From Lineolata rhizophorae (lineage: Eukaryota > Ascomycota > Dothideomycetes > Lineolatales > Lineolataceae): a stretch of DNA of 64,000 nucleotides. The notes beneath the pieces were generated by a model. That model was not told where the DNA came from and ran no database searches. It was given only the letters and a program-made list of their open reading frames with translations. This document shows positions 26,506-61,712 of this stretch, piece by piece; position 1 is the stretch's first letter, and each line of letters starts with the position of its first letter. The translations under genes were made by a program, and so were the position numbers. The stretch covers positions 636,751 through 700,750 of the forward strand of contig MU001683.1 in assembly GCA_010093515.1 (NCBI GenBank), in the 5' to 3' direction.

Positions 26506-28041
26506 ATGTTTAAGACCTTCGGTAAAACGAGCTTCGCCAGAACTGCTGCCGGCTATGGCCGGCCGGCTCCGTGGACGCCGAAGTCCCGCCTCCTAGCCAC
26601 TGTCCAAAACAACCCCGCTGCTGCTCGTCGGGTGCCTGGGACAAGCACCAGGTCTACCCGCCCTTCGCACGAGCGAGCCACGTTCACGATCAAGGTGCGA
26701 ACAACCGTCCCCGGCCCTATCGTCGCGGAAGATCTGTGGGGGTGCGACCCATCCTACACCGCCATTTGCTAAAAACGCTCTTTATAGGACGGTCCAATCT
26801 ACAGTGGCAAGTCATTCGGCGCCAAGTCCAACATCTCGGGTGAAGCCGTCTTCACCACTTCGCTCGTGGGTTATCCTGAATCTATGACCGATCCCTCTTA
26901 TCGCGGCCAGATCCTCGTCTTCACGCAGCCTCTGATTGGCAACTACGGCGTTCCATCCTCGACCCGCGATGACTACGGACTTCTCCGCTTCTTTGAGTCG
27001 CCAAACATCCAAGCTGCCGGCATCGTCGTTGCTGATGTTGCGGAGAATCCCTCGCACTGGACTGCCGTGGAAAGCCTCGGGCAGTGGTGTGCCCGCGAGG
27101 GTGTCCCAGCTATCTCTGGCGTCGACACCCGAGCCATCGTCACATTCTTGCGGGAGCAGGGGTCCAGTCTAGCGCGCTTGACCATTGGCGAGGAGTATGA
27201 TGCTGATGAGGACGAGGCCTATATTGACCCTGAGGGCATCAACCTTGTGCGCAAAGTATCTACCAAGGCGCCCTTCCATGTGCCGTCTGCGGGGGGTGAC
27301 GTGCACGTCGCCCTCATCGACTGCGGCGTCAAGGAAAACATCCTACGCTCGCTCGTCAGCCGCGGGGCCTCGGTGACGTCCTTCCCCTTCGACTACCCTC
27401 TACATAAGGTGGCGCACCACTTCGATGGCGTCTTTATCTCCAACGGCCCTGGCGACCCGACGCACTGCCAGTCAACCGTGTACCACTTGCAAAAGCTGAT
27501 GGAAAACTTCGTCTCGCTACCTATCATGGGTATCTGCCTTGGCCACCAGCTAGTAGCGCTGGCGGCTGGCGCCCGTACGGTCAAGCTCAAGTACGGCAAC
27601 CGGGCCCACAACATCCCCGCCCTAGACCTCACCACGGGCCGCTGCCACATCACATCGCAGAACCACGGGTACGCCGTGGACGCGACGACGCTGCCGCCCA
27701 ACTGGAAGGAGTACTTCGTCAACCTGAACGACAGCTCCAACGAAGGCCTGATCCACACGCAGCGGCCCATCTTCTCGACGCAGTTCCACCCCGAGGCCAA
27801 GGGCGGCCCGCTCGACAGCTCGTACCTCTTCGACGCGTACCTGGACAGCGTGCGCAGGTACAAGAAGGAGCAGCTCGGCATCAGCCCCGGGAGGGACTCG
27901 CGGCCGAGCCCGCTCTTGGTCGATCTGCTCGCGAAGGACCGCGTGGGCGTGAAGCCGGGCGTCCCGGATTATCCGGGTCAACCGGTGGCGGCGGGTCAAG
28001 TGGAGCAGGAGCAGAGGCCTGCGGTCGCTGCGGCGGCATAG
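26506..28041 (+). CDS. arg2: arginine-specific carbamoyl-phosphate synthase small (glutaminase) subunit, mitochondrial
   Basis: Supplies ammonia from glutamine to the CPS large subunit for carbamoyl phosphate in arginine synthesis. Exons 26506-26694 and 26788-28041 give 480 aa; the intron is 93 nt. The first ~35 residues are basic, Ser/Ala-rich and free of acids, a mitochondrial targeting sequence. The CPSase small-chain domain begins near [12 protein letters not shown]. The class I glutamine amidotransferase domain has the catalytic Cys313 in GICLGHQ and His397-Glu399 in [20 protein letters not shown] is the conserved oxyanion loop. The C-terminus carries an extra Pro/Gln/Ala-rich tail of ~25 residues. 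The uORF immediately upstream ties this copy to arginine, not pyrimidine, synthesis. Confidence 0.95.
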
Positions 28042-56288: not shown

Positions 56289-56861
56289 CCTTTCGCTGAA
56301 GACTTGTGGATTTATGGATGTTGAGGTTGAATCTCCAGGCTCTTATGACATATTTCCGTCTCGCTGATTGTCCCAAGCTCAAGATTCCTTAGTGACTTTC
56401 ATGGGAAGGGGGAGGTAAATGACGCGTAGAGCGTGCACGCACGTGTCGCTAGCTGCGGCTACCAAAGAAGCAGAAGTGCAGCGCGAGAGATGCGCCGATA
56501 TAATCCCGTGATCGAATCACGTGATTTCTCTATGGCGTTCCGTGGCTTGGCGATTCACGCAAGCCAGAGGTCCAGCCTCGACCCTGGAATTGTCATATTG
56601 TGGACATTGCATGGCCATCACAATAGAGCTTAAAGATGTATCAGATTTCACAAATTTTTGCTTGGACTTTGAAGTAAGAATTGGTTCAAGGTTGCATTAT
56701 GATTGTGGATAGGACGAGGCTGGGCCTACGGCCCTTCTCGTAGGGCAGAGGGTAAGTTTGCCGTGCGTAGCCGAATAGACTGCGCCAGCAGAACTGGCAG
56801 GGTCGTATAGATCCCTTTTAGTTTGCTCTACGTCCTGTAGATTAGTCCATATCCTATCGCA
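56289..56861. other. intergenic region
   Basis: 570 bp between the TMEM170-family start and the LYS9 stop. A small hairpin CCTACG...CGTAGG lies at about 56724-56743. No gene. Confidence 0.6.
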
Positions 56862-59425
56862 CTATGCGATAACCTTCTCCTTGCACTCGATCCTGAAATC
56901 TCTGTTAATACGTGGAGTTCGAAGAGACTAGAATAAGGATAGCTTACCCGTACTTCTCCTTCAACTCCTTCATTAATGGATCGTTGATCTTGGAGTTCAT
57001 TGGCGCGAGAATACCCTTGTCGGAGATCGTGCCATCAAGGACTTGTTTGACGGCTATGACCCAGGACGTTAGTAAACCCTCTTTTCAGAAGTGAGAGACG
57101 CTGTCTGAGACTCGGAGTGGTCAATGGTGAAACTTCCGGTGGCAATGTATCTTCGCTACTTGAGAATCATTGTAGCCCCGGGAGGAATTTCACAAAGCGG
57201 GGAGACTTACCGACACCACACGGTATGCCGACTAATTTCGCCATTGCCGAGTAGCCTCCGGATCCAGTTGGGGCACCGTACTCGCAGAGAGTAGAAGTTC
57301 TGGTCTCCCTACTACCGTCCTTGTTCTCGATCTCGAACTTGTGTTGAAGCATCTTAAAACCCGGGTGTTAGCATTACTCATCTTAGAACATATTGGGTGC
57401 CGAGACAAAGCTTACCACTAAGTCACGCTCACCCTTCTCGAACTGCATCTTTTCCTCAAGAGTGGCGCACAAAGTATCCAGCGGATTTCCTTTCGGGGTA
57501 ATCTTTGAGTCGGAGAAGATACCAACTAGGCCGTGGTGTCAGCAGGGCTCTTCTAAGAAAGTTTGGGGAGCTGGGATGATGTATCTAGTTTTGGTGCATG
57601 TTCAAGTTCCCTCGCGGATTTACACCACTGACAGTCCGTAACTCCACCTGAAAGAGACCGGAAGGTGACTATGAAGGTGCATAGGGTTGCTTACGCCACT
57701 TGAGACCTGCCACCACTCGATTCTTCTCATCATTATCCTTGAAGGTCGTTTTGGATGAAATTGCCCATAGGAGATCGTTCTCGCTTGATGAAGTCGAACC
57801 AAGGATCTTCTGAGTGGCCTCTTTCCAGGTGATTGACTCTTTCAGGAAGCTCTGGTCCTTGTCACTGAGAAAGCCAATATCGACCAAAACCTTGACGAAT
57901 TCTGGGAATCCTTGATATCTGAGGGTCTGAAACCCTGCGGTATTAGCATTGCATAGACTGGAAGGGGAAGATGAATGATGCCTTACACCACGGATGATAG
58001 TCTCGGCTTCTGGGATATTATAGCGTTCCTTGTATGGGGTTGAATCACGGTTGGGATATGCGACGAAAGCGAAGCCTAGACGCACGTAAGGATGAGGTAC
58101 CAGTATACCATATACTATTGGGAGAGATGCCTCGGGCCAACTTACCTGGGTAGATGTGGTAAGGCTTGGCAGTAGCCATCAAGTCTTCGACCAGTAGTGT
58201 TAGCGTAACTCTAATTAAGAGGATTTGGAGCAAAGATATCATACAAAAGCCCAGGCTAGGCAGGTTCTGGGCCCCGGACAACCTAAAGTAGGAATTGGAA
58301 AATCCGTACGGCCCAAAACGGGAAGTGATAGGGAGCGCAGAGTTGCTTACCGTGACCAGCAACGTTGACAATCTTCCCTCCTTGGTAGAAGCTTGCAGAA
58401 TTTCTGAGAGCGAGCAAAACTCCACGGGATCTTTAGTCCTGTAGCGTTAGCCTTACTCCTTCACGAATAATTTGGGTGTTAAGGCAGTCTCTTGAATTCA
58501 TGTCCATGTAGAAGCGCCCAGCTGTACTCAGACAACCCCAAAGAGAACATTATACGCCTAAGAGAGCCTAGAAGAGGAAATAAAAAGGTCGGCTGGTTAC
58601 TTACGACCAAGAGAACCTTCAACCCCGCGGCATTAGCATTACTCTTTAAGAAAGATTGGGTGTCAAGACGGGCTAGAAAGGCGAATATGACGGCATGCAG
58701 ATTTGCTTACTTGTAGCCCAATGGGTTTCCGGAGTCTGAGAATTAGCTTTAGTCGTCATATATATCATCTATATGCTTACCTTCTGGAGCTGGGAGACCT
58801 CCACAGTATGACAAGAATGATATGATTTTTCCTCCCGCCTTATGCACACTTTCGATCGTAGAAATTGCGTACAGATGATCGATTCCAGGGTCGAGCTGAC
58901 AATTAGTACCTTAAATTCCAAGAGGTACAAACGATATTTCCAACTTACACCAATCTCATTCATCACAGTGATGCCCGCGTCCTTTGCCTGTTGTTCGAGC
59001 TCGAGCATGGCTGGCGAAACATAACTCGTGGTTACAACATTCTTCTTGTTTCGAATCGCGGACTTGATGACGGTAGCGTGGAAAGTGTATGGGATTAAGC
59101 TGATGACAAGATCGTGCTGTGCTACTGCAGCGTCGAGCGCATTGTCGTCGGTGGCATCGAGGGAAATTGGTCGTGCGAGCTTGACGCCTTCTGAGAGCTT
59201 CTTTGCGTTCTCGAGAGTTCTGCAGGCTAGAGGATGTTAGTGAAGACTGTAAAAGCCATATCGCGCAAGCGACTCACCAACGGTGACCTCGATGCCAGCG
59301 TCGCTCAAAAGATCCAGCGTAGGCCTCGTAACGAAGCCAGAGCCGCTGAAATGCTTTCAGTATGTGGGTCACCTTTCCAATGGTCGACTTGACACTTACA
59401 GCATCAAAACACGCTGGGGAGCCAT
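56862..59425 (-). CDS. lys9: saccharopine dehydrogenase (NADP+, L-glutamate-forming; saccharopine reductase), 14 exons
   Basis: Penultimate enzyme of the fungal alpha-aminoadipate lysine pathway; converts aminoadipate semialdehyde and glutamate to saccharopine, cytosolic. Coding-order exons: 59425-59400, 59345-59278, 59226-58949, 58895-58781, 58735-58711, 58616-58605, 58430-58351, 58184-58146, 58075-57987, 57926-57695, 57525-57416, 57352-57211, 57053-56948, 56892-56862; they join in frame to 450 aa, the normal length. The N-terminal Rossmann motif is LMLGSGFVTRPT; other family segments are [64 protein letters not shown] and the C-terminus KEKYGIECKEKVIA. Exons of 12 and 25 nt occur. Thirteen introns is exceptional here, and at least six share a 3' sequence module (see findings). 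Without the last intron the frame would stop at 56944, losing the conserved tail. Confidence 0.94.
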
Positions 59426-59738
59426 GTTTGTTGGCGTATAGCAGATGTGGTGAGGAGGATCGTCGTCTGCAATTTCTACCATGCAACTGTGCGCATCTTC
59501 CACGTCGTGTCGGCCAAGGCAATGCAGACGTTGAGGTTGGCCGCTGCAAAATTGCAGGGAAATTCCGCCTCCGGTTTAGCCGATCTCCTCTTCGGGAGCT
59601 CCTCTTGCCTGGAGCGGCCGTGGGGGCGGGCTGCGGATGGCGGGGTAACCTCCTCCGGGCGCGGCGAAACGCCCTGCGTGCAGAAAGAACCATCAGGGAT
59701 CTCTCTAAGGCGAGCATCCCACGGCATCCCTTGTCAGC
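59426..59738. promoter_or_regulatory. 313-bp divergent promoter of lys9 and the HET gene
   Basis: Only 313 bp separate the two start codons, so both promoters overlap. I saw no TGACTCA (Gcn4/CPC1-type) site in it. Confidence 0.6.
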
Positions 59739-61712
59739 ATGGCGACCGTCTCGTCCAATGAGTTTGGGGTCCAAGATATACCGCAACACAACAAATCCTT
59801 CTACGACGACGATCTTCGCAATACCCCTCCCAAGACAATTCGACTCCTCGGCATCCACCCAGGGCTCTTTGCCGACCGACTCGTCTGCTGTCTTCAAACC
59901 GTATCCTCCCTGTTGAAGGATCACCAACAGACTTACCATGCTCTCTCATACTCGTGGACCGACCAGCCGGGCTGGAAAAACATCAGTCTAAATGGAAAGT
60001 CCGATTTCAGGATCGGCAAAAGTCTCTTTAGCGCCCTGCGTCGACTTCGTCTCCGTAATGACTTGCGATGGGTTTGGACGGACCAGATTTGTATTAACCA
60101 GGCTAATCTCGAGGAGAAGGACGAACAAGTTTCTATGATGGGGGACATCTATCGCCAGGCTGACTTGGTTTGCGTATGGCTGGGACCATGTGGCCATACT
60201 AATCGAGAAGCCGGTGAGGAAGAGGCAGAAGACTGTCTTGCTCACGTCGTCCATAAAGATGGTACGGTCGATTTTGGCCGCAGGGGATTGGAAGTCGTGC
60301 AATTATGCGAGGCCCGAGTTGAGGATAAGTCGCAGTGGTGGTGGCGGATGTGGGTCGTGCAGGAGATCGTGCTGGCCAAGGAAATAAAAGTCCTTGTCGG
60401 CGCGCACGAATTCCCTTCGCTGACAACCGCCGTGAAAGCCCTAGGGAAGTCCTGGATCGACAAAGAGCCGGGTCACGTTGCCCGGGGAATCACGAGGCGT
60501 CAATGGCAACAAATGCCGAGTAGACGGGCTCGAAACGATGCGTACATACGACTTCTATCTCTTCACACCACCAAGGGCGCCGTTTTAAGGGGGGTAGGGA
60601 ACGTGTATGACCTACTACACCTGACAGCGGCGCAACATGCTGGCTTAGCCAAAGATAAAATCTATGCCCTGCTGGCATTGGTGGATAAGAAACGGTGCAG
60701 CTTCGATATCGAGGTGCAGTATAAGAGACCTGACGAGGAGGTCTATATGGATGTCACTGAGTATCTTTTGAACGAGAAAAGGAGCCTAGATCCGTTGTAC
60801 GAACATTGGCCAAGGCGAAGGTCGCCCTCATGGGCATTGGACTTTAGTACCGGGCTGCGGAAAGCCGAGTGCTTGGTTTTGCACGTGCGACCAAAGTTGC
60901 CGTCGTGCCACAATCAAGCGTCACATCCTAATGAGGAGCCCAAATGTCGTGCCAGCAGGGACGGAAGCAACCCGGTTTTCCGTCGAGAGGGTGGATGTCT
61001 ACTCGTGCGTGGTTTTCGATTCGCAATCGTAGTCAGCACTGTTCAATGGGATACATCCAGCCTTATCGTTAAGGACAACAGCGAGATAGAAATGGTCAGC
61101 GTCGGGGATATCCGCGATGGCAAAATCGAGGTTATGTCGCATGCGGATGAAGAAGTTGATCCGTCGGATAAGTTGGGGACATTAACGCTACGCTGGCTAG
61201 AAGACTTCTATTGGAAGAAAAAAGAGCAATGTCACCCGGGGCTAGCCTCCTCCGACCAGAGGGGATCGCAGAAAGCTTGGTTGTCTTCCATCGACCAGAC
61301 TGAACAATTCGCTCGAACAATCACCGCAGACAAATACCTGCATGACAAGCATGGGAAAGAGATCTCCACTGGGGACTTCTTGCCACATCAGCCTGGCTTC
61401 CAAGATCACAAGCGGTCGTTCGACTTTCGCTCGCAAGCCTACGTCACACTAGCGAATAGAACCTTCTTCGCCACCGACCTTGGCCTATGTGGAATAGCTG
61501 GGAGCACTGAGGTTCAACCGAGAGACATTGTCGTCGTGCTTTCGGGGGCGAGCATGCCCGTCATACTTCGACCGATGCCTTCTGGCGAAAATGATGCTAC
61601 GTCGGGCTTCCAGTTGATAGGAGAGTGTTTCGTCTCTGGAATTATGTACGGTGAGCTTATGGAGGGAGACGGAAGCATTCTGTGGGCAGAAGAGGATTTT
61701 AGACTCGAATAG
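59739..61712 (+). CDS. HET-domain (heterokaryon incompatibility) protein
   Basis: Single-exon gene, 657 aa. The HET domain (Pfam HET) spans about residues 67-215. Its three hallmark blocks are visible: YHALSYSWTDQ, LRWVWTDQICINQANLEEKDEQV and MGDIYRQADLVCVWLG, followed by WWWRMWVVQEI. The central region has DLLHLTAAQHAGLAKDKIYALLAL, the usual post-HET segment that ends in KIYALLGL. The C-terminal 300 residues are poorly conserved, ending with the RDIVVVLSGASMPVILRP and GECFVSGIMYGELMEG strands typical of such proteins. HET proteins mediate regulated cell death after non-self fusion, but most members of this large family have no tested role. It looks intact. Confidence 0.9.
   Translation: MATVSSNEFGVQDIPQHNKSFYDDDLRNTPPKTIRLLGIHPGLFADRLVCCLQTVSSLLKDHQQTYHALSYSWTDQPGWKNISLNGKSDFRIGKSLFSALRRLRLRNDLRWVWTDQICINQANLEEKDEQVSMMGDIYRQADLVCVWLGPCGHTNREAGEEEAEDCLAHVVHKDGTVDFGRRGLEVVQLCEARVEDKSQWWWRMWVVQEIVLAKEIKVLVGAHEFPSLTTAVKALGKSWIDKEPGHVARGITRRQWQQMPSRRARNDAYIRLLSLHTTKGAVLRGVGNVYDLLHLTAAQHAGLAKDKIYALLALVDKKRCSFDIEVQYKRPDEEVYMDVTEYLLNEKRSLDPLYEHWPRRRSPSWALDFSTGLRKAECLVLHVRPKLPSCHNQASHPNEEPKCRASRDGSNPVFRREGGCLLVRGFRFAIVVSTVQWDTSSLIVKDNSEIEMVSVGDIRDGKIEVMSHADEEVDPSDKLGTLTLRWLEDFYWKKKEQCHPGLASSDQRGSQKAWLSSIDQTEQFARTITADKYLHDKHGKEISTGDFLPHQPGFQDHKRSFDFRSQAYVTLANRTFFATDLGLCGIAGSTEVQPRDIVVVLSGASMPVILRPMPSGENDATSGFQLIGECFVSGIMYGELMEGDGSILWAEEDFRLE

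Follow-up and report, generated by a model that had tools for sequence, protein, structure and literature searches.

Evidence for a family of related introns with a common 3' module in the LYS9 gene of Lineolata rhizophorae

Five, and probably six, of the 13 introns of the saccharopine reductase gene LYS9 very likely share common descent, judging from their sequences, and searches of the whole 31-Mb assembly with degenerate patterns found no clear excess of their shared 3' module outside this gene. LYS9 lies in the window (the whole stretch of DNA analysed, 64,000 nt), which corresponds to C14:636751-700750 of an assembly of 48 contigs. Published work is cited below from excerpts of the respective papers, and statements about it refer to those excerpts.

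LYS9 occupies positions 56862..59425 of the window on the minus strand and encodes 450 amino acids in 14 exons separated by 13 introns. Once the exons are joined, the reading frame is open over its full length, and 450 of 450 residues align with the saccharopine reductase of Magnaporthe (1e5l) with zero gaps (E 7.2e-252), bearing out the boundaries that a preliminary description had given for six of these introns. The same alignment demands the 12-nt exon between i5 and i6 (58605..58616, minus strand), which codes for part of KFSWSSRG and had also been recognised in that description, and it requires the AAG acceptors of i5, i6, i7 and i11, so that these features are fixed. Because the alignment is gapless, the exons are unduplicated. 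An acceptor of i9 at 57935 was considered and breaks the frame; 57927 is correct. A second copy of LYS9 was not found in the 31-Mb assembly, where the sole other match is weak (40% identity, E 6.3e-4), no relatives were detected in the scanned collections of viral contigs and genome contigs, and no Rfam match was obtained within 56500-59700. At 0.59, the GC3 of LYS9 is low but not outlying when set against 54 long frames of the surrounding sequence, whose first and ninth deciles are 0.57 and 0.85; this set includes non-genes and two runs of N. In Neurospora, LYS9 has three introns according to the excerpt of PMC10051792, compared with the 13 found here.

The family consists of i5 (58617..58710, 94 nt), i6 (58431..58604, 174 nt), i7 (58185..58350, 166 nt), i10 (57526..57694, 169 nt), i11 (57353..57415, 63 nt, made up of donor and module only) and, probably, i9 (57927..57986, 60 nt), which lacks the CACCCAA part; all are read on the minus strand. 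The acceptor of i10 is TAG, and an AAG acceptor is used by four of the six family introns versus none of the seven other LYS9 introns (Fisher, by hand, 15/715 = 0.02). Their common 3' module is about 55 nt long. It was represented by a sequence-only model, R1, made from the last 55-60 nt of i5, i6, i7, i10 and i11, whose matches on the minus strand lie at 58619..58671 (i5), 58433..58487 (i6), 58185..58238 (i7), 57528..57579 (i10) and 57353..57408 (i11), with a partial match in i9 at 57932..57952 (8.1 bits, E 0.21). Sixteen of the 60 alignment columns are invariant, and identity among the five members without i9 ranges from 48 to 70%, being highest for i5/i6, which are 12 nt apart (70%), and reaching 65% for i5/i11 across a distance of about 1.2 kb.

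Within the family, the last ~55 nt are strongly alike, the 5' ends show weak similarity, and that of the middle parts is marginal. Global alignment of the 3' modules gave z-scores of up to 9.9, the pairs of i9 with i6, i7 and i10 and the pair i6-i10 not being significant; at the 5' ends the similarity amounted to z 3.8 for i5-i10 and z 3.1 for i9-i10, and in the middle parts to z 2.5 for i6-i7 and z 2.4 for i6-i10. On the basis of this region-wise comparison (5', middle and 3'), i8 and i12 were rejected as members. The long intron i12 (57054..57210, minus strand, 157 nt) shows no significant family likeness, its 3' module reaching z 1.8 at most (i7-i12). By eye, i7 and i10 also contain TTTAG/GT and TTCAG/GT junctions (window positions 58283 and 57648, minus strand) that resemble recursive splice points; no good branch site was seen upstream of them.

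To assess relatedness, all 78 pairs of LYS9 introns were compared by local alignment with 200 shuffles each. Nine pairs reached a score unreached by any shuffle, and eight of these are among the 15 within-family pairs; the ninth, the non-family pair i3-i13, is probably a chance likeness. Three further family pairs had scores reached by 1-3 of the 200 shuffles, and i6-i9, i6-i10, i7-i9 and i7-i10 showed no significant likeness. The pair i5-i7 gave z 4.5. Intron i10 resembles i5 (z 9.0) and i11 (z 7.9), and i9 resembles i5 (z 6.8), i10 (z 4.5) and i11 (z 3.9), neither of them being significantly similar to i6 or i7.

Leave-one-out profiles, in which the rows kept their places from the five-row alignment, were run over 260 kb on both strands, including 4,800 N bases that are not searchable. 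Runs of N were noted at G000:C14:635716-636750, which ends at the base before the first of the window, and at 719949-723713. Each of the five members was the best non-training match in the 260 kb when left out, with 28.3 bits for i11, 24.3 for i5, 22.4 for i6, 11.7 for i7 (E 0.055 in 260 kb) and a weak 9.0 for i10 (E 0.36 in 260 kb). For the whole assembly the corresponding E values are 7e-5 (i11), 0.001 (i5), 0.005 (i6), 13 (i7) and 86 (i10), and i5, i6 and i11 are the sole members to stand out across the genome. Model R1 itself gave its five members 37.6-46.1 bits in the window, by construction, and the next best match, at 8.1 bits, was i9. In the leave-one-out runs i9 obtained 8.1-8.4 bits in five of six and was unlisted in the run without i5, against a background of up to 8.1 bits; it is the weakest member, its place in the family resting mainly on the pairwise scores. 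When 1062 candidate branch-to-acceptor 60-mers from the 260 kb were compared all against all, i5/i11 was the top pair, in agreement with the likeness that the preliminary description had reported for these two. Seven pairs of neighbouring 60-mers scored at least 15 (0.73 expected), five of the seven being in LYS9 and none involving i7 or i9. The shared 3' module proposed in that description is thus upheld by the leave-one-out profiles for i5, i6, i7, i10 and i11 and is less sure for i9, which lies near the background.

Pattern searches of the assembly were evaluated against control patterns. A degenerate module pattern had 10 matches in the 31 Mb, corresponding to the five main LYS9 members and five outside sites, with one match for the control; none of the five outside matches exceeded 9.0 bits with the module model. 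Inspection of this pattern indicates that it would still recover three of the five members had its design not included them. Three stricter patterns each matched one or two LYS9 members, with outside and control matches of 0 and 0, 1 and 1, and 2 and 0, respectively. Two looser patterns gave 28 matches (five in LYS9, 23 outside, 22 for the control) and 81 matches (five in LYS9, which were the sole exact ones, 76 outside, 97 for the control), and a pattern for the 5' end gave five, of which the three in LYS9 were the sole exact ones (two outside, three for the control). BLAST-like DNA searches each yielded a single match, located in LYS9, without recovering even the sister introns there; therefore, they exclude only near-identical copies. 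No match to i11 was found in plasmids.

Individual outside matches were also inspected. The best among those examined, L010, was found with a stricter pattern and reached 12.0 bits (E 0.0046 for 24 kb); it was rejected as a member, its sequence context being A+T-rich and no CTRAY branch site occurring where the alignment calls for one. Another, L034, scored 9.0 bits with the module model. A match of a looser pattern, L049 (about 353-428, G000:C10), lies in an intron of a gene that we take to be importin-like and carries the exact 13-mer GAGTAATGCTAAC; at 9.9 bits, and with no clear likeness to the LYS9 family beyond GAGTAATGCTAAC, this intron was likewise rejected. In an assembly this large, chance alone is expected to yield scores like those of L049, L010 and L034 at least 100 times. 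Had tens of related introns of similar age been present elsewhere, these searches would probably have revealed them; they would miss a mere handful of outside members, or introns that have diverged as far as i9. A few diverged members elsewhere are conceivable, since i7 and i10 are undetectable by profile at genome scale and the degenerate pattern had five outside matches versus one for the control.

Marks of mechanism were sought at the six family introns. Repeats of 2 or 3 nt that could represent target duplications occur in at most one of the six at any shift, and repeats of 4 or 5 nt in none of the six. Near-terminal inverted repeats of about 10 nt are not beyond chance in five of the six introns (p 0.4-0.7), i7 alone giving p 0.034 among 13 introns tested. 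None of the six has a stable fold (z-scores of -0.35 to +1.92 versus shuffles), and the gapless protein alignment to 1e5l leaves no duplicated exon sequence. These marks disagree with DNA-transposon introners and with the exon-intron repeat expansion described for Cryptococcus CNN00420 (excerpt of PMC2395259). They agree with transposition of an intron into its own transcript, as set out in the excerpt of PMC3443670; related introns in one gene with unduplicated exons, the pattern by which intragenic intron transposition is recognised, is what we find in LYS9.

From the observed relatedness and the observed absence of clear copies elsewhere, we infer a direction and a route of copying. The reading that we favour, with about even confidence, is the proposal that one LYS9 intron was copied into new LYS9 positions, most likely via RNA, and that the copies were confined to LYS9; the smaller number of introns in Neurospora LYS9, three, counts in its favour. 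After excision, an ancestral LYS9 intron would have entered its own pre-mRNA or mRNA by reverse splicing; reverse transcription would have followed, and the intron-bearing cDNA would have recombined with the LYS9 locus. The copies would then have diverged, with the branch-to-acceptor module being the slowest to decay. Under this proposal, a LYS9 cDNA finds homology only at LYS9, and this would account for the restriction of the family to one gene, for the unchanged frame and protein length and for the lack of target duplications. The ancestor was probably the form of 165-175 nt, because i6, i7 and i10 have that length and the inner parts missing from the short introns differ from one to another; i5, i9 and i11 would have lost inner parts. 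The copies appear to be old, and a recent burst is unlikely because the five modules are just 48-70% identical. More tentatively, we suggest that a spliceosomal intron may be mobile strictly within its own gene, having given rise to four or five copies in LYS9 and none elsewhere by way of the gene's own cDNA.

Several points count against the RNA route. The other seven LYS9 introns persist, so each recombination would have to have been partial, and strong homology restricted to the last ~55 nt would be expected as well if acceptor ends had been converted or the module had been under selection. Significant likeness is missing from four of the 15 family pairs, and none of the six insertion sites is an AG|G proto-splice site. 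Reverse splicing into new sites has, moreover, had little direct demonstration according to the excerpt of PMC3443670.

The family could instead be the relict of a genome-wide introner-like family for which LYS9 was a hot spot and whose other copies decayed or were lost. We regard this as unlikely, though it draws some strength from the age of the LYS9 copies, given that fungal introner-like elements are said soon to become indistinguishable from regular introns, and from the report of two elements per gene in four genes (excerpt of PMC4457414); the five outside matches of the degenerate pattern versus one for the control also count slightly in its favour. However, copies in other genes should not have decayed more quickly than these, and the looser patterns nevertheless show no excess; a stable fold, a feature attributed to fungal introner-like elements (excerpt of PMC9024468), is also missing from the LYS9 introns. 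A somewhat less probable reading holds that the positions are ancient and that ectopic gene conversion, or template switching at the DNA level, spread 3' ends among older LYS9 introns. This would account for the concentration of likeness at the 3' end and for the closest pair by identity, i5/i6, being also only 12 nt apart; the 65% identity of i5/i11 at ~1.2 kb and the weak similarity that 5' ends share as well (i5-i10) speak against it, and precise splice-to-splice units would be easier to produce by RNA.

Had LYS9 been acquired, introns included, by horizontal transfer from a fungus in which introns of this family abound, its being private to one gene would be accounted for, and LYS9 is far richer in introns than its Neurospora counterpart (excerpt of PMC10051792), but the GC3 of LYS9, low as it is, falls within the local range, and we find such a transfer quite improbable. 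We give equally little credence to the view that the module is a splicing or regulatory element kept alike by selection in several LYS9 introns rather than by common origin. The module is indeed the best conserved part of the introns, with its invariant columns, but likeness continues between branch site and acceptor, including the poor AAG acceptor, and the module is clearly shown nowhere else in the genome. Least probable by far is that the branch-site regions resemble one another by chance. A branch site is required in every intron, and i3-i13, a pair outside the family, likewise scored above all of its shuffles, but the leave-one-out and all-against-all tests contradict chance, at genome scale for i5, i6 and i11, and the other seven LYS9 introns stay out of the family.

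Fungal introner-like elements were reportedly described by van der Burgt et al. in 2012. Like them, the LYS9 introns are related spliceosomal introns at several positions, and two introner-like elements can share one gene (PMC4457414); like ascomycete introner-like families, they also lack target duplications (PMC9860276). According to the excerpts consulted, however, introner-like elements are near-identical and occur in unrelated genes (PMC4457414), their published families number from a few tens to about 500 copies (PMC3879977), and fungal ones are stably folded (PMC9024468), whereas LYS9 has six copies in one gene and no stable fold. The preliminary description had assigned the LYS9 introns to an introner-like family, and in the published sense that assignment is not supported, given the lack of a clear excess outside LYS9, the module identity of 48-70% and the missing fold. 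Its suggestion of a local burst of intron gain survives insofar as related copies lie inside LYS9, a recent burst being unlikely at that identity, and the outcome that it had named as speaking against its reading, an absence of genome-wide matches beyond LYS9, is largely what the pattern searches gave, with a handful of diverged members conceivable.

Other known systems are also close in some respects. In Oikopleura dioica, four near-identical intron pairs, each within one gene, were attributed to reverse splicing (excerpt of PMC3879977); the LYS9 introns are similar in being related, confined to the same gene and explained by proposed reverse splicing, and differ in that a single fungal gene holds six copies, diverged from one another, rather than nearly identical pairs. 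The sister stwintrons and cropped introns of Xylariales resemble the LYS9 family in their seamless insertion without target duplications, in the occurrence of long and internally deleted forms and in the RNA intermediate proposed for them (excerpts of PMC12403724 and PMC8469720). Unlike those stwintrons, as far as these excerpts describe them, the LYS9 introns have no stwintron structure recognisable by eye and are confined to one gene, and unlike [D1,2] stwintrons, five of the six show no near-terminal inverted repeats beyond chance. Cryptococcus CNN00420, a case of intron gain by repeat expansion, also has several alike introns in one gene, but there exon ends are duplicated with the intron, whereas the LYS9 exons are unduplicated (excerpt of PMC2395259). 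In the parts of the open-licence PMC literature consulted, we found no description of a family of six introns private to a single gene.

The origin of new spliceosomal introns is a long-standing open question, and the best-described bursts are spread over genomes. A family kept to one gene would allow re-entry via the gene's own cDNA to be told apart from free transposition and, if the proposal is true, would document under natural conditions how reverse splicing in cis can make a single gene rich in introns. Comparison of LYS9 among the many fungi with sequenced genomes would allow each gain to be dated.

The divergent neighbour of LYS9 (window 59709-61712, plus strand) is a 667-codon open frame with a HET (heterokaryon incompatibility) domain (E 2e-25), its uninterrupted frame contrasting with the 13 introns of LYS9. 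Elsewhere in the window, positions 26788-28041 of the plus strand hold one 417-codon open frame with carbamoyl-phosphate synthase small chain domains.
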